Shown here piece by piece: positions 3,748 through 20,013 of a DNA stretch of 23,091 bases. The DNA is from Gemmatimonadota bacterium (GTDB lineage Bacteria; Latescibacterota; UBA2968; UBA8231): the NCBI GenBank assembly GCA_002712305.1, contig PATE01000026.1, positions 38,947 through 62,037 of the forward strand, in the 5' to 3' direction. The notes below the pieces were generated by a model. It was not told the origin of the DNA, ran no database searches, and saw only the letters and a program-made list of their open reading frames with translations. Each line of letters starts with the position of its first letter. The stretch's first letter is position 1. The position numbers and the translations under genes are program-made.

Positions 3748-5685
3748 ATGTTGCGAAGAATCTACCCCTCTGTTTTCCTGCTCTGTCTTGCCTCGGTCAC
3801 GACAGGATCAGCCGACCAATTTCTCGTGGGCGGATCCGACCATCCCTGGGTCGACTCTGGTACCACTCCAGGTGGTGTCATCGACTTTGTCGAAGATATC
3901 ACCACCGTGATCGAAGAAGAGCAGGTCCTGTTTCCCGTCGAGACTGATGAGAGAAACTGGATCGTTCCGGTTCGTGTCGATCCAGACGTGAATATCTCGA
4001 TCGGATTGCTGGATCGTGGCGGCAAGATCGACATTAATCTGTCCGACAATCAGAAAGACGAAGATGAACTTGCGGGGGTGATCAACGGCGATCATCGTGT
4101 CGCCCTCGACCGCAAGCCTGTCGATGGCCGGGCCCTGGTGAACAATGGCATCATTCTGTCCATCGATCTGGGTGCCCGTTTTGGGGTGAATCGAATCGTC
4201 TTCTACCCTCGCATGACCCCGCAGTTTCCCTTCGGTAACGATTTCATGCGCAGTTACGCGCTGTTCATCAGCGAAGATGAAGAGCCAAACCTGGCGTCGC
4301 CTGACTTCTCGGAATCCGACAACCAGGACACGACGGTCGTCGTCGAGATCGACGCTCAGTTCGTTCGATCTCTGGCACTGAAGTCGACACTGAATGCCGG
4401 TTTTGAGATCGACGAATTCGAGATCTATGGGACCGGATTTGTGCCCGAGGCCTCTTACGAGTCCCTTCCACTGTTCCTCGATGATCCTTCTGTGTGGGGA
4501 CAGATTCGGTGGCTGGAGGCGATCGCCGGAGATCCGAGAGATTCCTCGATCGAAGTGCGGGTCCGCTCGGGTTCAGACGACACTCCGGACAGCTTCTTTC
4601 GCCAGATCAAGGTGGGAGGTGTTGTCACGGGCCGTTCCGAGAACGACGCTGATGGCAATCCGTTGACCCAGGCCAGCTACGAGCGCCTGCTGCGCGAAGA
4701 TGAGTCGGTGTTCAAGCAGACCGATCTGGAGAACTGGGGTCCGTGGCAGTTGGTGAGCAACGGGCAGACCCTTGAACTGCCCGCACCGCGACAGTATCTG
4801 CAGTTCCGCATCGACTTTGCCAACGCGACGCTGAATTCGGCTCGTGCCCTGGCGGAGTTGGAATTCGATTTCGCCTCGCCTCCCGTGGACAGGTTGATCG
4901 CCGAGGTCCAACCCTCTGTGGCCACCATCAGCGAGCCTACGACATTCACCTTCGTCGCTCGCATCGACAATGGCAGTGGCCGTCCCGGTTTTCGGCGTTT
5001 TGACATGGAAACGCCGGCGAGAGTGACGGCCATTCACTCGGTCATCGTACGCGACTCAAACGGTACCGTCGTTTCCCAAGGCGATTTCGGGTCGATCGCC
5101 AACGACGCGGTCTTGCCGATCCAGAGTGGCCAGATCACGGTCGATGCGATCGAAGAAGATCATTTCTCCTTACAATTGCCCCGGATTGAGCAGGACGGTG
5201 CCACGATCGAGATCATCTTTGACTCAGCCGTCTTTCGATATGGGACTCGATTCCGTGGCCAGGCCTTCGCCGACGATGCCGAGTTGCCCCTGCTGACCGA
5301 AGCGGGAAACGCGACGACTGCCATCGACACCGACGGTCTTCTCGTGAAGGTGTCGATCGGGTCCAAGATCGCGGGGCCCATGACCCTGACGCCGGCGAGT
5401 TTTTCACCCAATGGTGATGGTATCAACGATCTGACGCGGATCGAATACATTGTTCAGCATCTCGTCGCGCCTTCCCGGGTCACCGTAGATATCTATGACC
5501 TGGCCGGGCGTCGAGTGCGACAACTGACCACAGACAACAGAAGCAGTGGCCAATATGCCGTTGACTGGGACGGGCGCGACGATGACAACGCGCTGGTACC
5601 CCCCGGGTTGTATGTGGTGGCTGTCGAAATCAACTCAGATGAAGGAAACCATCGGCGCCTGGGGCAGGCTGCCGTGATCTACTGA
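3748..5685 (+). CDS. Surface protein A1: discoidin-like plus FlgD-like C-terminal domain
   Basis: A 645-residue secreted protein and the first of three paralogues in this block (others at 9626 and 13239). Residues 1-22 are a signal peptide. About 107-230 resembles a galactose-binding/discoidin jelly roll (SIDLGARFGVNRIVFYPR, then FEIDEFEIYGTGF). About 235-375 is a second beta domain containing GQIRW, the YERLL loop (311-315), NWGPWQ and APRQYLQFRI. About 385-535 is an Ig-like region with FRYGTRF and ELPLLTEAG. Residues 546-645 are a FlgD-Ig/gliding-associated domain (SPNGDGIND, DIYDLAGRRVRQL, WDGRDDDN, VPPGLYVV) ending AVIY. The stop TGA overlaps the ATG of the next gene by one base, so the two are probably translationally coupled. 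A role as an exported adhesin or surface-layer component fits the domains but is inference. Confidence 0.83.
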   Translation: MLRRIYPSVFLLCLASVTTGSADQFLVGGSDHPWVDSGTTPGGVIDFVEDITTVIEEEQVLFPVETDERNWIVPVRVDPDVNISIGLLDRGGKIDINLSDNQKDEDELAGVINGDHRVALDRKPVDGRALVNNGIILSIDLGARFGVNRIVFYPRMTPQFPFGNDFMRSYALFISEDEEPNLASPDFSESDNQDTTVVVEIDAQFVRSLALKSTLNAGFEIDEFEIYGTGFVPEASYESLPLFLDDPSVWGQIRWLEAIAGDPRDSSIEVRVRSGSDDTPDSFFRQIKVGGVVTGRSENDADGNPLTQASYERLLREDESVFKQTDLENWGPWQLVSNGQTLELPAPRQYLQFRIDFANATLNSARALAELEFDFASPPVDRLIAEVQPSVATISEPTTFTFVARIDNGSGRPGFRRFDMETPARVTAIHSVIVRDSNGTVVSQGDFGSIANDAVLPIQSGQITVDAIEEDHFSLQLPRIEQDGATIEIIFDSAVFRYGTRFRGQAFADDAELPLLTEAGNATTAIDTDGLLVKVSIGSKIAGPMTLTPASFSPNGDGINDLTRIEYIVQHLVAPSRVTVDIYDLAGRRVRQLTTDNRSSGQYAVDWDGRDDDNALVPPGLYVVAVEINSDEGNHRRLGQAAVIY

Positions 5686-9625: not shown

Positions 9626-11485
9626 ATGAAGATCTCATCACACTCGCTCGTCCTGTTGTTGGTACTCGGTGCCTTACCCCTGTCAGCGCGTGAAACGATC
9701 CAACTGGGTGGTGCCACCGGCCAGGCCTGGACTGAGAGTGGCGAACTCACGTTCATCGATTCAGATACGAGGGCAGGCAGCATCGGACCCTTCAAGACTG
9801 AACTGACGGAGAATCTGATCGCCACCATGCGATCTAGAGGTGGTGACATCGACACCATCGTCGACAACTACACCATCCCGCAGGACTGGAGCGATGGCGG
9901 CTATGAGTGGATCATTGACGGCGATTCCACGACCGCCTTCGTGCATCCACCCCGAATCCAGATCCTCGGAGGCGGGGGTGGCTACTGGACGGTGCCCATG
10001 TTCTTCGATCTGGGCGCGCCCTTCCTCGTCTCTCGGATTCGCTGGACAACTCGTTCGGACCACCCCGAGAATCAGATGAGGCGTTATATCCTCTATCTGA
10101 ATGATGGAACCGAGGCAGCGAAGGATCGCGTCGGCAACATCGTCTGGACGAAGTACCGAGAAGAGATCGACAATCTGGAGAGTATCGTCGACTTGGAGAT
10201 CAAGCCACAGATGGTGCGTCACATCTATATCCGGCCAGGTGGCGTGGGTACCAACAATGGCCTGAGTACAACCTGGGAAGTGGCGGAGATGCAGGTCTTC
10301 GGCCAGGGCTTCGTCCCTGGCGCCGAATTCACGTCCGATCCGCTTGACCTGGGTGCCCCATCTACACTTGGGCAGATTCAATGGGGTTCACACCAGGACG
10401 CCGGTGGGCAGATTATCATCCAGACGCGCACGGGCATTGACGACCAACCCTATGTCTATTGGCGCGTGACTGGTGTGGGAGACGAATTGTCTCCAATCGA
10501 TGACCAAGGCCGCCCCTTGACGCTGTCCGCCTATGAGCGTCTGAAGCCGAACCAGCGAGGCGGGATCACGGATGACCTGGCCGACTGGAGTCCCTGGCAG
10601 ACCTATGATCTCGAAAAAGGTCTGATGGGCACACAGATTCTGTCCCCCAGTCCACGATCCTTCATTCAGATCCGTGTTCAGTTCTTCTCCGACGCCCTTG
10701 CAGGGGGCCGCGTCGATTCACTGCACTTCGAATACTCGCAGCCACCGGTTGTGACATCTGCAGTGGGCGAGATCTTCCCCACGCAGGTCGAAGCTTCGGT
10801 GCTGACCGATTTCACCTATGCCGTACGCGCACGTATTGAGCCGGGACAGTCAGGTTTCGATGCACTTCGGCTGCGCTCCAACGCCCTCATCGACACGATT
10901 ACCGATGTCCGCATCGATCGAGGCGCCGTGGCCTACGATGTGGACCGAGATTCGTTGGGCATGTTGATTCGATTCCAGCGAATCGTCCAGGATCAGTCGC
11001 TGCTCGAGGTCGATTTTGGTGCCCGCGTATTTCGTTACGGCACGCCTTTCGACGGTGCTCTCGTAGATACCGAATCCGACGAAGTACCCTTGTTGGTCAA
11101 TGCAGGAGACGCGATCGCGGAAACACTCAGCGATGAGTTGACGGTGCGCACTGGTTTGAAGGGGGCGATCCTGCCCGATCTGACCGTGTCGCCCAATCCA
11201 TTCTCGCCAAACGATGATGGTTTCAACGACCAGGTCACGCTGTCTTCCGCGGTCCTGCGTTTGACGGGAGACACGCCGGTTGACCTGCAAATCTTCGATC
11301 TGAGTGGGCGTCTGATTCGGACGTTGAGCCAGGTCGTGTCGGGCAGCGCCTCCTTCGCGATGGAGTGGGACGGCCAGGACGAGGCCGGTATATTGGCGCC
11401 GCCGGGTCTGTATGTCTTCCGGCTGGCCGTCGACACCGACACAGGTAGTCACACGCGTCTGGGCCAGGTGGCCCTCGTCTATTGA
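9626..11485 (+). CDS. Surface protein A2: discoidin-like plus FlgD-like C-terminal domain
   Basis: A 619-residue secreted paralogue of A1 and A3. Residues 1-21 are a signal peptide. About 90-230 is discoidin-like (EWIIDGDSTTAF, FFDLGAPFLVSRIRW, EVAEMQVFGQGFVPG). About 235-370 is the second beta domain, with GQIQW (249-253), the YERLKPNQRGG loop (303-313), DWSPWQ and SPSPRSFIQIRV. About 380-510 is Ig-like with FRYGTPF (469-475) and EVPLLVNAG. Residues 521-619 are the FlgD-like domain (SPNPFSPNDDGFND, QIFDLSGRLIRTL, EWDGQDEAG, APPGLYVF) ending ALVY. The first gene after the strong terminator, it probably starts an operon; the ribosome-binding site is weak (GAAGAG upstream). Its TGA stop overlaps the next gene's ATG by one base. 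Role as a surface adhesin or matrix protein is inferred. Confidence 0.83.
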   Translation: MKISSHSLVLLLVLGALPLSARETIQLGGATGQAWTESGELTFIDSDTRAGSIGPFKTELTENLIATMRSRGGDIDTIVDNYTIPQDWSDGGYEWIIDGDSTTAFVHPPRIQILGGGGGYWTVPMFFDLGAPFLVSRIRWTTRSDHPENQMRRYILYLNDGTEAAKDRVGNIVWTKYREEIDNLESIVDLEIKPQMVRHIYIRPGGVGTNNGLSTTWEVAEMQVFGQGFVPGAEFTSDPLDLGAPSTLGQIQWGSHQDAGGQIIIQTRTGIDDQPYVYWRVTGVGDELSPIDDQGRPLTLSAYERLKPNQRGGITDDLADWSPWQTYDLEKGLMGTQILSPSPRSFIQIRVQFFSDALAGGRVDSLHFEYSQPPVVTSAVGEIFPTQVEASVLTDFTYAVRARIEPGQSGFDALRLRSNALIDTITDVRIDRGAVAYDVDRDSLGMLIRFQRIVQDQSLLEVDFGARVFRYGTPFDGALVDTESDEVPLLVNAGDAIAETLSDELTVRTGLKGAILPDLTVSPNPFSPNDDGFNDQVTLSSAVLRLTGDTPVDLQIFDLSGRLIRTLSQVVSGSASFAMEWDGQDEAGILAPPGLYVFRLAVDTDTGSHTRLGQVALVY

Positions 11486-13209
11486 TGCGGGTCGCTCACA
11501 GGCAGGTCGCCGCCGCGTTTCTGCTGCTGGTCGGATGCGCCACCGAACCCGAGGTCGCACCCGCTCCCGGCGTTGTCGCCACGGTGGGGGAAGAGCGGAT
11601 CCTGGCCGACGATCTTCGGATACACGCATCGCGCGTCCCCATCACCCTGCTTTCCAGCAGTCGGCCCGATTCCGCGCGTCGTCAGTATCTGAAGGGTCTC
11701 ATCGTGCGGCGGCTTCTGGCTCGAGAACTGACCGACCGCGGTCTGGACACGGCGAAGGTCGTGACCCAACAGGCAGAGGATATGCTGAGGAATCGGCTTT
11801 CAGATCTGTATCGGCGCGAACATCTGTGGCCAGAGGTGACCGTCGAGCGCGCCCAGGTGCAGGCATTCTACGACAGTCTCGGGCTTGCGGTACAGCGGCT
11901 GGTATCCGGCATTGTCGCCCGCACTCGTGCCGAGGCCGAGCAGATGCGTCGGGGTCTGTTGGCGGGGGAGAGCTTTGAGAAGATGGCGAAACGGCAGTCG
12001 AAACACCCCCTGTCTGCGGCGGCCGGTGGTGAACTCGGCCACCTGACTGTTCGTCAAGCAGCGACGCTCGGGATCTCCGCCGAGACTTTCGCAGATCTGC
12101 CAGACAGTGCGATCTCCGAGGTTTTTTCGCTGGGTGATCAGTTTCAGATCATTCGATTCCTCGACACACGGCATCCGCCTCTCGAAGAATTCGGACAGCA
12201 GATTTTAGACGTGTTGATGGAGCGCGCGCGTGAGCGTTACGAGGCGGAACGACTCGACGAACTTACCGCCGAGTTGGGCTGGCGATCTGTGCCCGAAGGT
12301 CTGGCCATCATCGACCAACGTGGCGGGGGCAATACGGCCGTGCAGCCTTGGTTGTTCGGGAGTGTGGAAATGGCGTCCCCGTTGTTCGTTTATGCCGACA
12401 CGGCGATCTCGATCGGCCAAATGCTGGACATCTCCAAACGCCGTCGTCGAGATATCACCGACGCGGCGTCAGCCGAGCGACTCGGCCAGAGTCTGCGAGC
12501 AGAGTATCTGTTCGCCGAGGCAAGTCGTCGTCTGGGCATGGAGAGCACGCCAGAGATGATCTCGTGGCAAGAGAACCTCATCGAGGAACTGGGCATCACC
12601 GAACTGCGCCGGCTCGTGTTGGCCGAGGCACCGGCCCTGACTTCAGACGATGTGCAGCAATTCTACAAGGACTATTCGGACCTGTTTCGTGAGAGTGATG
12701 ACATCCTCATCGTGGAGGCCCTGCTCGAAACCGAAGAGGACGCGGCCGCCGTCCTCGCCGATGCCGAGGCGGGACAGGATCTGATGGTGCTGGCACGCGA
12801 GCGAACGACACGAACCGAGGGCCCCGCGGATTCACGCGGAACGCTGAGACTCAACGAGCACGAGCGCATGACGAACAGCGTCCTGTATGCGGCCGTACAA
12901 GAGGCTCCCCTCAATGAGATCGTCGGCCCTGTTGCCGTGCAAGGCGGATTCAGTGTTTTTCGTGTGATCCACCGCGAGAAAGGGATAATGATTCCCTTTC
13001 TCGACGTAGAGCAACGTGCTCGTGCCTATGCACGGCGCACCCAACAGAGCAAGACCTTCGAGGACTTCGTCGACGAATTGCTGGATCGATACGAAGATCA
13101 GACGCGGATCTACGAATCAGAATTGGCCCTTGCCCTGCCCGACTCTCTCGTCGATGAGATCGCTCGACGCGATCGGCAACGCGCCGGTCTCCCTGTCGAT
13201 CTCAACTAA
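11485..13209 (+). CDS. SurA/PpiC-type peptidyl-prolyl isomerase lipoprotein
   Basis: A 574-residue parvulin-like periplasmic foldase. The ATG at 11485 lies in TGATG with the A2 stop; a TTG three bases earlier is open but less likely. The signal peptide ends in a lipobox, L-L-V-G-C (Cys18), so it should be membrane-anchored. About 30-130 is a helical SurA-N-like region (VVATVGEERILADDLR, then a charged helix ending LYRREHLWPEVT). Residues 136-228 form a first rotamase-like domain (EAEQMRRGLLAGESFEKMAKRQ, GGELGHLT, GDQFQIIRFLDTR). About 280-400 is a second helical part. Residues 404-498 form a second, more diverged rotamase domain (LMVLARERT, NEIVGPVAVQGGFSVFRVIHRE). The C-terminus is helical and charged. 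Placed between two large beta-rich exported proteins and coupled to one, it probably folds them during export; that partnership is inference. Confidence 0.85.
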   Translation: MRVAHRQVAAAFLLLVGCATEPEVAPAPGVVATVGEERILADDLRIHASRVPITLLSSSRPDSARRQYLKGLIVRRLLARELTDRGLDTAKVVTQQAEDMLRNRLSDLYRREHLWPEVTVERAQVQAFYDSLGLAVQRLVSGIVARTRAEAEQMRRGLLAGESFEKMAKRQSKHPLSAAAGGELGHLTVRQAATLGISAETFADLPDSAISEVFSLGDQFQIIRFLDTRHPPLEEFGQQILDVLMERARERYEAERLDELTAELGWRSVPEGLAIIDQRGGGNTAVQPWLFGSVEMASPLFVYADTAISIGQMLDISKRRRRDITDAASAERLGQSLRAEYLFAEASRRLGMESTPEMISWQENLIEELGITELRRLVLAEAPALTSDDVQQFYKDYSDLFRESDDILIVEALLETEEDAAAVLADAEAGQDLMVLARERTTRTEGPADSRGTLRLNEHERMTNSVLYAAVQEAPLNEIVGPVAVQGGFSVFRVIHREKGIMIPFLDVEQRARAYARRTQQSKTFEDFVDELLDRYEDQTRIYESELALALPDSLVDEIARRDRQRAGLPVDLN

Positions 13210-13238: not shown

Positions 13239-15875
13239 ATGTTTCGCGCTCTGTGCACCTGCCTGGTCATCCTATCGGTGAGCGCCGCCTGGGCGCAGGA
13301 TGGGTATCGCCTCACGAGTCAATCCATCGAGATCGACCGGGCTTCCCACTGGCGCGCATGGGCTGCCCCCGAGGGATTGGTGTCGATCTCGTCGGACGGC
13401 GTTGTCCAACCGCGGGTGCTGAACACGTCGGTGAATGCGTCGCTGAACGCGGCTGACTTTACGTATGAGTTGGCCGGTGCACTGAGCAGCTACTACGCCA
13501 ATTCTGCCAGCGATGGGGGCGTCTTGCGCGCCACGGGCGGCATCAAGAGTGCCAAGTCCAGCGACGGAACCGCTTTGCGCGTGATGGATGGTGACGTGAC
13601 GACCTACTGGGAGCCGGATGCCGACGATGAGCTGGCCGACTGGCAGGTCGAGATCGATCTGGGTCGATTGGTGTCGGCAACGCACATTACGATTCGTTTT
13701 ACCGAAGACGCACCCGATGACCGTGCCGATCCTTTCTACCAGTTTCGTGTGCATACCGCCACCGGTCAGAATCCCTTCGACGAGGTCTCCAATCCCATTC
13801 TCGAGTACCAGTTTGCAGGTGGAACGACCGAACCCAACCTCGACCAACGTGAGTTCACTTTCGGTCTCGAACCCGTACTCGTGCACACCGATGGATGGAC
13901 CGGCCGTCTGACTCAATACGTACGGGTCTCCGCCACAGGGCGGAGGGGCGACCGCGCCGAGGAGGTGACGCAGGGCGAATACGACGCTCTGCCGACGGCG
14001 GATCAGGGGGTCGTGGAGAATGTCTGGCTCATCGGTGGCGAACAGCGCGTCGTCACAGCGGACAGATACGATGCCCTTCCTGCCGAGCAGCAGGGAGGCC
14101 AGCGTTATTTCCGTCGTGAGCGCCCGCGCCTGGCCGAGGTCGAAGTGTGGACGGCGGGGGACAACATCGCGTCCGGCATCCAGACACGTGGTGGAAGCTT
14201 GCAAGAGGGCAATCCGAACGCTGCGGCGGAACTGGCCTTCGATGGCAGCATACGCACGAACTGGAATGCCACCGTCTTCAGTACTGTCGGAGATATTGCG
14301 GGTTGGGGGCTGCTGCAAATCGATCTGGGCGCATTGATGCGCATCGACGCGGTACGCACCATCTCACGCCGCCCTGCCCGCGCCGAGCGCGTTCTCTTCG
14401 GGTATATCCTGCGTGGCTCCGACGGTTCCGTGGCACCCGATGGCAGCCTGATCTGGGAAACCCTCAGCCCCGATGAGCGCCTGCTGAATCAGGATACGAG
14501 ACTCTTCGAAGATCGATTCGATTCGACGCCGCTGCGGTTTCTTGAGTTCCGCAACGTGGACACGGCACGCCGCACCCTCGCTCACGAGGGGAATCGACAT
14601 CAGAGTGTCGTGACCGAGATGCAGATCTACAGCAGTGGTTCGGTACCGGAAGTCACCATGGTGTCGGACCTCATCGACATGAATGTGCCGCGCAACCTGC
14701 AGACGATCTCCTGGGACGCGGATACACCTGAAGGCACGTCCGTTGAGATCCGTACGCGCACAGGTGACAACCTGCGAGAAATCAGTCATTACTACCTCAC
14801 GACAGGAGAGGAAGTCACCAAAGCTGTGTGGGACAGCAAACCCTCTTTCTTCCGCGATCCGGTGGTGGTGAAGGAGTTCGTGCCAGGGCCGGGATGGAGC
14901 AATTTCAGCCAGGCCTATCGGGAACCCGGTGAAGCGATCGTCTCACCCAGCCCACGGCGATACTTGATCGTGGAGACACGCCTGCTCAGCTCGGTATCCG
15001 ATACGGTCGCGTCCATCCGTTCGATCTCGATTTCCACGCAACGGCCCGTAGCCAGTCAGTTGCTCGCCGAGATCAGCCCCAAACGCGACGTGCCCATCGG
15101 TGAACCGGTGGATTTCGATCTGTTTCTCCGACCGACCTTTCCATCCTTCGGTGCCACCGACTTTGATCGTCTTCGGATCATCGCACCTTCGCAGGCCGAG
15201 ATGACCTTGCGCAGTGTTGACCTCGGGGATGAAGGCGATTTCACCGCCGCCACCACGGAGTCTTTCGTGCGCGACGGTGCGACCCAGTTCAGCAATGCAT
15301 CAGGTGAAGTCCTGTTTGTGAACGGGGATGGAACCGATACACTCCTGGTCGAATTGCCCACGGCGGTGAGCTCGAGCAGCCCCGACCTGGTTCGTCTGTC
15401 CTTTACGACGTCCGTCTTTCAGAGTGGATCGACCTTCCGCCTCGAGGCGGCGCGTTCATCCAGGCCAGATGCCTGGCAGGCAGCCGATGGAGGCGATGCG
15501 GTGGGTGATGAGTTGTCCATCGGTGGCGGCACGACGGTTCTGACCCCACTGGGTGGTAGCGACATTCTGCTCGGCGACGAGACGAGTCGCGTTTTCACCC
15601 CCAACGGCGATGGGTTCAACGACACCGGTCTGTTTGAGTTCGCCGTTCTCAGAATCAATGTGGACCGGGAGGTCGGCGTCGACATCCATGATCTGAGTGG
15701 CCGCTTGATCCGCCGGCTGCGTGAGACGCGGGCCAACGGGCTATACCGATTGGAATGGGACGGCCTCGACGAGGAAGACCAACTGGTTCCTCCAGGCATC
15801 TACATCGTGCGCTACAAAGTGGATGCCGATGCGGGGGGTTCGACACCGACCGGGCTGGTCAGCGTCGCCTACTGA
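13239..15875 (+). CDS. Surface protein A3: two discoidin-like regions plus FlgD-like C-terminal domain
   Basis: An 878-residue secreted protein, the largest of the three paralogues. AGGAG at 13227-13231 precedes the ATG by seven bases, 29 bp after the foldase gene. Residues 1-20 are a signal peptide ending AWAQ. The first discoidin-like region is about 100-305 (ALRVMDGDVTTYW, QVEIDLGRLVSATHITIRF), interrupted by two tandem YDALP loops at 243-287. The second is about 320-468 (AELAFDGSIRTNW, LLQIDLGALMRIDAVRTI, VVTEMQIYSSG). About 485-600 is the shared beta domain (QTISW, then SPSPRRYLIVET). About 605-740 is Ig-like. Residues 783-878 are FlgD-like (TPNGDGFND, DIHDLSGRLIRRL, EWDGLDEED, VPPGIYIV) ending SVAY. 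Discoidin domains usually bind carbohydrate or polar lipid heads, so an adhesive surface role is likely but unproven. Confidence 0.83.
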   Translation: MFRALCTCLVILSVSAAWAQDGYRLTSQSIEIDRASHWRAWAAPEGLVSISSDGVVQPRVLNTSVNASLNAADFTYELAGALSSYYANSASDGGVLRATGGIKSAKSSDGTALRVMDGDVTTYWEPDADDELADWQVEIDLGRLVSATHITIRFTEDAPDDRADPFYQFRVHTATGQNPFDEVSNPILEYQFAGGTTEPNLDQREFTFGLEPVLVHTDGWTGRLTQYVRVSATGRRGDRAEEVTQGEYDALPTADQGVVENVWLIGGEQRVVTADRYDALPAEQQGGQRYFRRERPRLAEVEVWTAGDNIASGIQTRGGSLQEGNPNAAAELAFDGSIRTNWNATVFSTVGDIAGWGLLQIDLGALMRIDAVRTISRRPARAERVLFGYILRGSDGSVAPDGSLIWETLSPDERLLNQDTRLFEDRFDSTPLRFLEFRNVDTARRTLAHEGNRHQSVVTEMQIYSSGSVPEVTMVSDLIDMNVPRNLQTISWDADTPEGTSVEIRTRTGDNLREISHYYLTTGEEVTKAVWDSKPSFFRDPVVVKEFVPGPGWSNFSQAYREPGEAIVSPSPRRYLIVETRLLSSVSDTVASIRSISISTQRPVASQLLAEISPKRDVPIGEPVDFDLFLRPTFPSFGATDFDRLRIIAPSQAEMTLRSVDLGDEGDFTAATTESFVRDGATQFSNASGEVLFVNGDGTDTLLVELPTAVSSSSPDLVRLSFTTSVFQSGSTFRLEAARSSRPDAWQAADGGDAVGDELSIGGGTTVLTPLGGSDILLGDETSRVFTPNGDGFNDTGLFEFAVLRINVDREVGVDIHDLSGRLIRRLRETRANGLYRLEWDGLDEEDQLVPPGIYIVRYKVDADAGGSTPTGLVSVAY
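13965..14099 (+). repeat. Tandem YDALP loop repeat inside A3
   Basis: Two copies, 29 residues apart, of a loop with pattern V-T-x-x-[ER]-Y-D-A-L-P-[TA]-x-x-Q-G (residues 243-257 and 272-286) sit within the first discoidin-like region of A3. Related single loops occur in A1 (YERLL, 311-315), A2 (YERLK, 303-307) and later in A3 (VTKAVWDSKP, 526-535). Confidence 0.6.
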
Positions 15876-17731: not shown

Positions 17732-18922
17732 ATGACACCTACCCAACCGACCGATCCCGAGCGTCTCAGTGCGGCTGTCGACGAGCAGCGCCTCCTCGAC
17801 ACGGCGATCCGCCTCGTCGATATCCCCAGTCCCACGTGTGATGCGGCTGCTGTGGCCGATGGACTGGCCGAGTTGCTGGCTGCAGAGGGTTTCGAGGTGG
17901 AACGACCCGACGCCGGTTGGCCGGAAGCACCGGCGGTGGTGACGCGCCTGCACGGCGCGGGTGAAGGTCGAACGCTCCAGTTCGACGGTCATCTCGATAC
18001 GGTGCACCTGCCCTTCGTGCCGGCGCGCGTCGAAGATGGCCATCTTCGCGGTCTCGGTGCGTCCGATATGAAGGGGGGGATTGCCGCCTGCGTCGAAGCG
18101 ATGCGCGCGCTACGCGATACCGATGCCCTCAGCGCGGGCAGCGTCCTGCTCACAACACACGATCACCATGAGGCGCCCTGGGGCGACGGGCGACAGGTCC
18201 ACGGGTTGATCGCAGATGGTTTCACAGGCGATGCGGTCCTGTTGCCCGAGTATCTGGCAAATCCGCTGCCCCTGGCCGGTCGCGGCATGGCGGTCTTTGA
18301 AGTGACCCTGTCTCGGCCGGGCGAACCGGTGCACGAGGTCCTGCGTCCCTCCGATACGCCGAATGTCGTCGACGCGGGGGCCGAGCTCGTCGTCCGCCTG
18401 CGCGAGTTGGCCCGCGAGCTACAGTCGATCACCCACCCCTATTCTGGCACTGACACGACCTTCGTCGGCTTGCTGCAGGCGGGAGAGATCTACAACCAGT
18501 CGCCCACGTCCTGTCAGATCAAGGGGACCCGCCGCTGGGTGACGCCGGGCAGTGTAGATCGTATCCGAGACGAACTCGGTTCGATCATCGACACCGTCGC
18601 CTGTGAGACGGGCACCACCGCGCAGTGGCACCTCGAAGTGCCTGGAGACGCCTTCCAGATCGATCCTGCCGAACCGGTGCTGACCTGCCTGCAGTCGGCC
18701 TGTCGTCAGGTCAGTGGCTCAGAGCTTCCCCTCGGGGGCAAACCCTTCGTCGATGACGGCAACAAGTATTCCGCCATGGCCGGAATCCCGGCCCTGACCC
18801 ACGGCCCGGATGCCCTGGGAGCCCACACGACGCAAGAGAGTGTTCCCGTCAGCGAGTTGACCCGCATCGCTCGTGTCTACGCCCAGACAGCAGCCTCGTT
18901 CTGTCCGGGTGACGCAGCCTGA
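17732..18922 (+). CDS. M20-family metallo-amidohydrolase (ArgE/DapE-like)
   Basis: A 396-residue cytosolic di-zinc hydrolase that should cleave an N-acyl amino acid or small peptide. The ATG at 17732 gives the usual family N-terminus; the frame is open back to 17609, but that extension overlaps the aminotransferase start and shows no homology, so I rejected it. No clear Shine-Dalgarno sequence is visible. Motifs: FDGHLDTVH (metal ligand His87, Asp89), GASDMKGG (Asp112), THDHHEAPWG (Glu147), a dimerisation/lid domain at about 185-290, and GPDALGAHTTQES (His365). Where most M20 enzymes have D-E-E with a catalytic Glu next to the ligand Glu, this one has H-H-E, so either the base differs or it belongs to a variant subfamily. 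The divergent aminotransferase suggests a joint amino-acid salvage pathway, which is inference. Confidence 0.85.
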   Translation: MTPTQPTDPERLSAAVDEQRLLDTAIRLVDIPSPTCDAAAVADGLAELLAAEGFEVERPDAGWPEAPAVVTRLHGAGEGRTLQFDGHLDTVHLPFVPARVEDGHLRGLGASDMKGGIAACVEAMRALRDTDALSAGSVLLTTHDHHEAPWGDGRQVHGLIADGFTGDAVLLPEYLANPLPLAGRGMAVFEVTLSRPGEPVHEVLRPSDTPNVVDAGAELVVRLRELARELQSITHPYSGTDTTFVGLLQAGEIYNQSPTSCQIKGTRRWVTPGSVDRIRDELGSIIDTVACETGTTAQWHLEVPGDAFQIDPAEPVLTCLQSACRQVSGSELPLGGKPFVDDGNKYSAMAGIPALTHGPDALGAHTTQESVPVSELTRIARVYAQTAASFCPGDAA

Positions 18923-18951: not shown

Positions 18952-18955
18952 GGAG
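18952..18955 (+). promoter_or_regulatory. Ribosome-binding site deciding the selenoprotein start
   Basis: GGAG lies eight bases before the GTG at 18964 and supports a start upstream of the in-frame TGA. A second AAGGAG (19076-19081) precedes the ATG at 19087, but that shorter product would lack the active site. Confidence 0.5.
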
Positions 18956-18963
18956 ACAAGACC

Positions 18964-19308
18964 GTGCCAAAAATCGAATGGCGCTACCACCGGCCTGGCT
19001 GAACCAGCTGCAAACACACGCAAGAGTTTCTTGCGCAGAACGAAGTAGCTGATGGCACGGTTCAAAGCGCCTCTAAGGAGCCTGTCATGGCCGACACTGT
19101 CCTGGCTCTGTTGGACGGCGTTGACGAGATGCTCGTGGCCAAGGGCAAGAACATTCAACGATACGATCTGGGAAGAGAACGCCCCGATGATGACGAGCTG
19201 CGCGGTCTCATGCTCGGGCGCTCGGGCAAACTGCGGGCGCCCACCATCCGCCAGGGCAACCGGTTGCTCGTCGGCTACAACCAGGATTTGGTGGCCGAAC
19301 TGCTGTGA
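18964..19308 (+). CDS. ArsC/thioredoxin-fold selenoprotein (UxxC), TGA at 19000 read as Sec
   Basis: A 114-residue redox protein if the in-frame TGA at 19000-19002 is decoded as selenocysteine. GTG at 18964 (GGAG eight bases upstream) gives PKIEWRYHRPG, then Sec13-T-S-Cys16, KHTQEFL and onward without another stop to the TGA at 19306. The frame is the same before and after 19000. The C-terminal half has the ArsC-family signature: DGVDEMLVAKGK, RPDDDELRGLMLGRSGKLRAPTIRQG and LLVGYNQD, with a likely cis-Pro at 93. Cys-containing relatives with CxxC at this place are known to me as the ArsC family (seleno)protein group. A hairpin fitting the bacterial SECIS lies just after the TGA. It probably acts as a cytosolic thiol/selenol oxidoreductase; the substrate is unknown. 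Calling it from the ATG at 19087 would lose the active site. It lies 41 bp after the M20 gene and converges on the DUF4389 pseudogene. Confidence 0.87.
19005..19051 (+). promoter_or_regulatory. Bacterial SECIS element
   Basis: The lower stem pairs CAGCTGC (19005-19011) with GTAGCTG (19045-19051), seven pairs including one G-U. The upper stem pairs CGCAAG (19019-19024) with CTTGCG (19030-19035). The apical loop is AGTTT with G at 19026, 23 bases after the TGA. Published bacterial SECIS rules call for a short upper stem, a G in the first two loop bases and a spacing of about 16-37 bases; all are met. SelB would bind the loop. Confidence 0.8.
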
Positions 19309-19324: not shown

Positions 19325-19952
19325 TCACTCTATGGCGAAGGGTGGGTAGTGGTCGGTGGTCAGCAGGAAGGCACAGGCCACAACCCGCAGCCAGTAACGC
19401 ATGACGAGGACGACGAAATCGAAGAGGCCACGGGGATAACGTCCCGTGAACAGGATCGCAAACCAGGCGATCACGATACAGAGCAGGCTGGCAATGCTCA
19501 GCGCGAACAGCACCACATAGTGCGGTAGGGCGAGGAGCCACTTGACCAACGGCAGCCCAACGGTTGAGATCTGCTGCTGCGTCAGGATATTCGAGGTGGT
19601 CTCGAACGGCCTGATCTTCATCGACAGACGGATATTCGTCGCGCAGAAGCATCAAATAGGACTTGACATGGGCGCCAAACCCCATCCGAGCCAACTGCCA
19701 GTCGAATCACCAGCGCGGGTATTTCTGCCGGAACAGGATCATCAGAAGCGTCGCCATATACAGGCCTGCACCGAGACCGAGTCCCGTCGACACGGATGAC
19801 TCTCGCACCTGTGTTCCCGGGCCACTGAGAAACGACAGAATGATGAACACGGGGATCGCGTAGATCAGCCGGAAGAACGTCGACAGTCTGGACAGCTCCC
19901 GATCGGGATAGTCCACCTCGACGGTGGCGGGATACGGGGTTGTGGCATCCAC
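19325..19952 (-). pseudogene. DUF4389 membrane protein, broken by a nonsense codon and a +1 frameshift
   Basis: On the minus strand AGGAGG (19958-19963) precedes a GTG start at 19952. The reading frame gives PYPATVEVDYP, the first membrane segment (TFFRLIYAIPVFIILSFL) and LLMILFRQKYPRW, then meets TGA at 19707-19709. It continues in the same frame with FDWQLARMGFGAHVKSYLMLLRDEYPS to DLNRW. There the frame must shift by one base in a CCC run (19556-19558, plus strand) to resume LPLVKWLLALPHYVVL and the final FTGRYPRGLFDF to YPPFAIE. The order matches intact DUF4389 proteins of about 200 residues with a duplicated membrane unit. TGA stands where the family usually has Trp (RYPRWWFDW), so TGG to TGA is likely. 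With both lesions the protein is not made whole; assembly error at two sites is the alternative. It converges on the selenoprotein gene (16-bp gap). Confidence 0.85.
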
Positions 19953-19957
19953 AAGGT

Positions 19958-19963
19958 CCTCCT
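19958..19963 (-). promoter_or_regulatory. Ribosome-binding site fixing the DUF4389 start
   Basis: AGGAGG on the minus strand, five bases before the GTG at 19952. It rules out the longer open frame from a TTG at 19982 and shows the gene was once translated from here. Confidence 0.7.
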
Positions 19964-20013
19964 GTTTCGGGGGAGGGTACAAAGGAACCTTACAGAGGGA
20001 GTGTCAAACGCAG

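Follow-up and report, generated by a model that had tools for sequence, protein, structure and literature searches.

Arsenate reductase-like selenoproteins carrying a UxxC motif have already been catalogued several times. A 2026 review lists "Arsenate reductase-like protein, NF041106, UxxC" among selenoproteins (PMC13188914), and an arsenate reductase-like COG1393 UxxC family is listed elsewhere (PMC9312934). An "Arsenate reductase 2" (cd03032, UxxC) was described in the GOS ocean samples, where 238 homologues with Cys accompanied its 42 selenoprotein sequences (PMC2398784). This last group is probably the same family as NF041106. Besides these selenoproteins, the relatives to be compared are the Spx/MgsR proteins (TIGR01617; PDB 6ghb, 3ihq), which have a CxxC motif, and the glutaredoxin-coupled ArsC of E. 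coli (PDB 1i9d), which has CGTS where the UxxC proteins have their redox motif. We analyzed a stretch of 23,091 nucleotides (hereafter, the window), which contains a further example of the catalogued selenoprotein family, here in what is very probably a Latescibacterota lineage, and no new kind of system. Indeed, the gene shares with NF041106 the fold family, the UxxC motif and the place of selenocysteine (Sec), and differs from it in nothing of kind.

The gene, of the ArsC/Spx family and encoding 114 aa, is located on the + strand at 18964..19308. A single frame, read directly from the sequence, leads from GTG 18964 through TGA 19000-19002 to the stop codon TGA 19306-19308, and a GGAG at 18952..18955 (+ strand), 8 nt 5' of the GTG start, is a probable ribosome-binding site. 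When the internal TGA is taken as a sense codon, the frame 18964-19305 gives the 114-residue product VPKIEWRYHRPG-U-TSCKHTQEFLAQ..., whose redox motif is U13-T-S-C16. In the alignments, ArsC Cys12 and Spx Cys10 are matched by the Sec codon 13 (19000..19002, + strand), and the second Cys in the CxxC of Spx is matched by Cys16 (19009..19011, + strand), the second residue of UxxC. The sequence-only reading had claimed a continuous frame across TGA 19000, and 18964-19308 does read in this way, with purifying selection on both sides. It had also anticipated that a gene caller would start at 19087 and report 73 residues; 19087-19308 is indeed the only entry of the conventional ORF list in this frame (73 aa). 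On the contrary, its description of the gene as "unannotatable" fails, because NCBI already holds the curated model NF041106 for this selenoprotein family. From the comparative sequence evidence given below, we consider it nearly certain that TGA 19000 is read through as selenocysteine in a member of NF041106, and highly probable that the product is a selenoprotein with a redox role.

The product matches the Pfam ArsC family PF03960 (41.5 bits, residues 8-112) and the NCBIfam model NF041106 (ArsC_rel_Se_1, "ArsC family (seleno)protein"), the latter with 117.6 bits against a cut-off of 85 and over model positions 1-105 of 107. An earlier label, "ArsC-like with UxxC", is thus right on the PF03960 match as far as the fold family is concerned. 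Its reading as an arsenate reductase is barred, because R60, R94 and R107 of E. coli ArsC, which we take to be the oxyanion-binding arginines, are replaced by K/Q, A92 and Y105 in the selenoprotein alignment. An AlphaFold2 model obtained with 26 sequences has a pLDDT of 94.8, and its top PDB match by Foldseek is Spx (E 2e-5, TM about 0.55). Spx is also the best match by VIA-align (Z 8.3, rmsd 2.8, 86 residues), with YffB and small thioredoxin/NrdH-like proteins close behind, at Z gaps below 1 that amount to ties.

Since the three arginines are replaced, the likeliest activity would be that of a dithiol-type selenol oxidoreductase and not of an arsenate reductase, an assignment from sequence comparison that we hold to be rather probable. 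We propose that SelB and Sec-tRNA would recognize a hairpin 3' of the UGA and insert selenocysteine at residue 13, a step supported by sequence conservation, by covariation and by the Sec machinery found in the genome. The resulting protein belongs to the Trx/Spx fold. The Sec13 selenolate would probably attack an oxidized substrate (disulfide, sulfenate or peroxide), a selenenyl-sulfide with Cys16 would resolve the intermediate, and the selenoprotein would be regenerated by a thiol reductant of the cell. The steps of attack, resolution and regeneration are drawn from the UxxC motif and the fold.

A special case of this oxidoreductase activity is suggested by the gene neighborhood. Most members of the sister genus carry a PAPS_reduct (cysH) gene (117 bits) just upstream of the selenoprotein gene and in the same orientation, with a gap of 13 nt at the five loci checked, and CysH-type enzymes need a thioredoxin or glutaredoxin-like partner. 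Hence, the selenoprotein could serve specifically to pass electrons to an APS/PAPS reductase of the CysH type. However, this adjacency concerns one genus only, of which one member has no adjacent PAPS_reduct gene. The related cysH of the window's genome (51% identical, 122 bits) lies on another contig; its place is taken by an M20-family peptidase gene (17732..18922, + strand), directly 5' of the selenoprotein gene, a neighbor also found in the genus's other genome. The other phyla have other neighbors, namely a GNAT acetyltransferase in some Gemmatimonadota and a small protein without Pfam match in Acidobacteriota. No neighborhood conserved across phyla was found, the adjacent genes varying by genus. 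Since no partner is conserved family-wide, CysH is only a lead, and we regard the role of electron donor for it as improbable.

The rest of the window calls for two observations of its own. The DUF4389 gene adjoining the selenoprotein gene (19325-19982, - strand) looks broken: its TGA (about 19709) corresponds to the second Trp of RWWFDW in the same-genus orthologue (L040), and a frameshift follows. In contrast to TGA 19000, this comparison points to a mutation or an assembly error and not to selenocysteine. Elsewhere in the window, several large proteins of secreted type, whose C-terminal domains are FlgD-Ig or CHU_C, the latter a type IX sorting signal, are encoded near one another at 953-2833, 3748-5685, 9626-11485 (assigned by the similarity of its C-terminus only) and 13239-15875, with a rotamase gene (11482-13209) in their midst. 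These FlgD-Ig/CHU_C genes perhaps form a secretion cargo cluster.

The literature label of the family, arsenate reductase-like, corresponds to another explanation, namely a classical ArsC arsenate reductase, coupled to glutaredoxin, that contains selenium. It agrees with the Pfam ArsC family, and with the presence of Sec at the position of the catalytic Cys12; E. coli ArsC and the window protein also share the overall fold and the position of the nucleophile. Against it, besides the replacement of R60, R94 and R107, stand a TIGR00014 (ArsC arsenate reductase) score of 13.7 bits for a cut-off of 106.05, and a profile comparison much weaker with ArsC than with Spx (hhalign probability 41 vs 97). 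Moreover, no ArsB/ArsR-like neighbor was recognized among the listed adjacent ORFs, part of which were classified. We therefore judge an arsenate reductase of this type to be very unlikely.

Among solved structures as well as in sequence, Spx comes closest to the selenoprotein: the two share the Trx fold, the location of the redox motif, the VGYN motif and about 25% identity. Hence the alternative of an Spx-like redox switch which would bind RNA polymerase and control transcription. However, the window protein has Sec for the first Cys of CxxC, its region 55-68 is predicted as two strands, and it lacks the C-terminal segment that Spx possesses after about residue 114. The scores are also far off the curated Spx cut-offs, with 38.8 vs 75.05 bits for TIGR01617 (Spx/MgsR) and 35.3 vs 123 for a second one. 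Sec tends to take the place of catalytic cysteines more than that of regulatory ones, which disfavors such a regulator further, and we hold this alternative to be highly doubtful.

Whatever the activity of the oxidoreductase, its synthesis would require the decoding of selenocysteine, which the sequence-only reading had attributed to this lineage. The window's genome (4.77 Mb, 146 contigs) bears this out, as all the components looked for are present: selA (553 bits), selB (350 bits), selD (351 bits, with its own in-frame TGA) and a tRNA-Sec (66.6 bits, anticodon tca (UCA)). The in-frame TGA of selD (L038) falls in the N-terminal active-site loop, TCG-U-AAKVSP, and for this reason the selenophosphate synthetase of this genome is probably a selenoprotein too. 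A selB scoring above the cut-off is present in 11 of the 12 family carriers; in the remaining one, whose genome is 75% complete, a fragment of selB lies at the end of a contig. In 70 genomes of two other phyla, selA was found in 35/35 gene-positive and in 24/35 gene-negative genomes (Fisher p 0.0002), an association inflated by the relatedness of the genomes.

The second component of the decoding is the bacterial SECIS (bSECIS) hairpin, for which published rules give a loop of 3-9 nt, a stem of 4-16 bp, a G in loop positions 1-2, a spacing of 16-37 nt and an energy of at most -7.5 (PMC13188914). The candidate CGCAAGAGTTTCTTGCG (19019..19035, + strand; 17 nt) has a 7-bp stem, a loop G at 19026 and a loop start 22-23 nt after the TGA, and it lies within the published limits for loop, stem, spacing and energy. 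Its single-sequence fold is unexceptional when taken alone (z -1.3), so that the case rests on covariation. Across 33 distinct sequences, 97% of the stem cells are paired, and double changes are found in 26 cells against 6.8 expected in shuffles, a level attained in 0/500 of these. The stem covariation reaches 0.360, compared with at most 0.116 when the partner is slid; sliding by 1-3 columns abolishes the signal. Two stem pairs illustrate these exchanges, one occurring as GC (17), UA (10), AU (4) and CG (1), and the other as AU (23) and GC (9). The distance between the hairpin and the TGA is identical in every aligned sequence. A recoding of TGA to Trp, Gly or Cys, whether through a changed genetic code or through near-cognate readthrough, is countered by this covarying SECIS together with the full Sec system, by the alignment of Sec with the catalytic Cys of ArsC and Spx, and by the use of TGA to terminate the selenoprotein gene itself (19306-19308); we consider it extremely improbable.

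Conservation also bears on selenocysteine readthrough at TGA 19000. The gene occurs in 12 genomes of the same GTDB family, that of the window among them, and in each of the 12 it contains a single in-frame TGA, always at this codon. A scan of GenBank with one genome per species, partly overlapping these same-family genomes, gave 40 loci from Latescibacterota, Gemmatimonadota (including Longimicrobiales) and Acidobacteriota, and 40/40 have TGA there. In 298 Gemmatimonadota genomes 54 matches exceed the NF041106 cut-off, and in 297 Acidobacteriota genomes 23 do so, with exactly one TGA each, its position having been checked for the majority of the matches retrieved as loci and inferred for the rest. 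In the window's phylum, profile A1 gave 12 matches, all with one TGA. The alignment with the relatives extends over residues 1-41, Sec being at position 13, and their codon 13 is TGA, neither TGC nor TGG; all the computational checks put forward with the sequence-only reading, that of the Sec machinery included, came out in its favor. Over 21 sequences, pN/pS rises from 0.16 in codons 4-12 to 0.34 in codons 14-41 and 0.41 in codons 42-110. Purifying selection thus acts on either side of the TGA and is strongest 5' of it. Codon 42 (ATG 19087) is Met in the window only, and E, A, T or V in the 20/20 other sequences, which excludes a conserved translation start at 19087 and makes the 73-residue reading an artefact. 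A true stop or sequencing error at TGA 19000, leaving a 73-residue protein from ATG 19087 or a pseudogene, would suit the 19087-19308 returned by a mechanical ORF finder and the broken look of the neighboring DUF4389 gene, but it is refuted for practical purposes by a TGA kept in all examined relatives of three phyla, by preceding codons that are the most constrained and by an ATG that is unconserved.

Finally, we looked for forms of the protein with Cys in place of Sec. No Cys homologue of the subfamily was found in the 298 Gemmatimonadota and 297 Acidobacteriota genomes; the TGA-less matches in them score no higher than about 41 bits and for this reason seem to belong to other ArsC/Spx-type families, and not to be Cys forms. 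Viral contigs yielded no relatives, and a search of plasmid proteins gave mainly Spx at 25-29% identity and no close Cys homologue. The argument from Sec/Cys pairs thus rests on the distant Spx and ArsC. Most Sec families have Cys counterparts, and the lack of a Cys form among the sampled members is worth noting for this reason. Our limited literature search found no description of this distribution over Latescibacterota, Gemmatimonadota and Acidobacteriota without Cys forms. A Gemmatimonadota sister group (L101-L105) has WAYLRPG-U-xTC (WSYLRPG in L105) and PSGNLRAP where the subfamily has WRYHRPG-U-TSC and RSGKLRAP, with the TGA and a similar hairpin present too. In Acidobacteriota, weak ArsC-family matches of about 22-31 bits (G596, G641, G657, G519, G595 and others) have one in-frame TGA, and are possibly a second ArsC-type selenoprotein family.

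What these results mean for the family and its hosts can be stated at different strengths. We offer only as a speculation that the subfamily might be an essentially Sec-obligate redoxin, its covarying SECIS fixed in all three phyla, serving as the dedicated reductant of a specific oxidized partner such as a CysH-type APS/PAPS reductase. More directly, a family usually labelled arsenate reductase-like is shown here to be without the arsenate-binding residues, and a little-studied lineage is shown to carry the full selenocysteine machinery and to use it.
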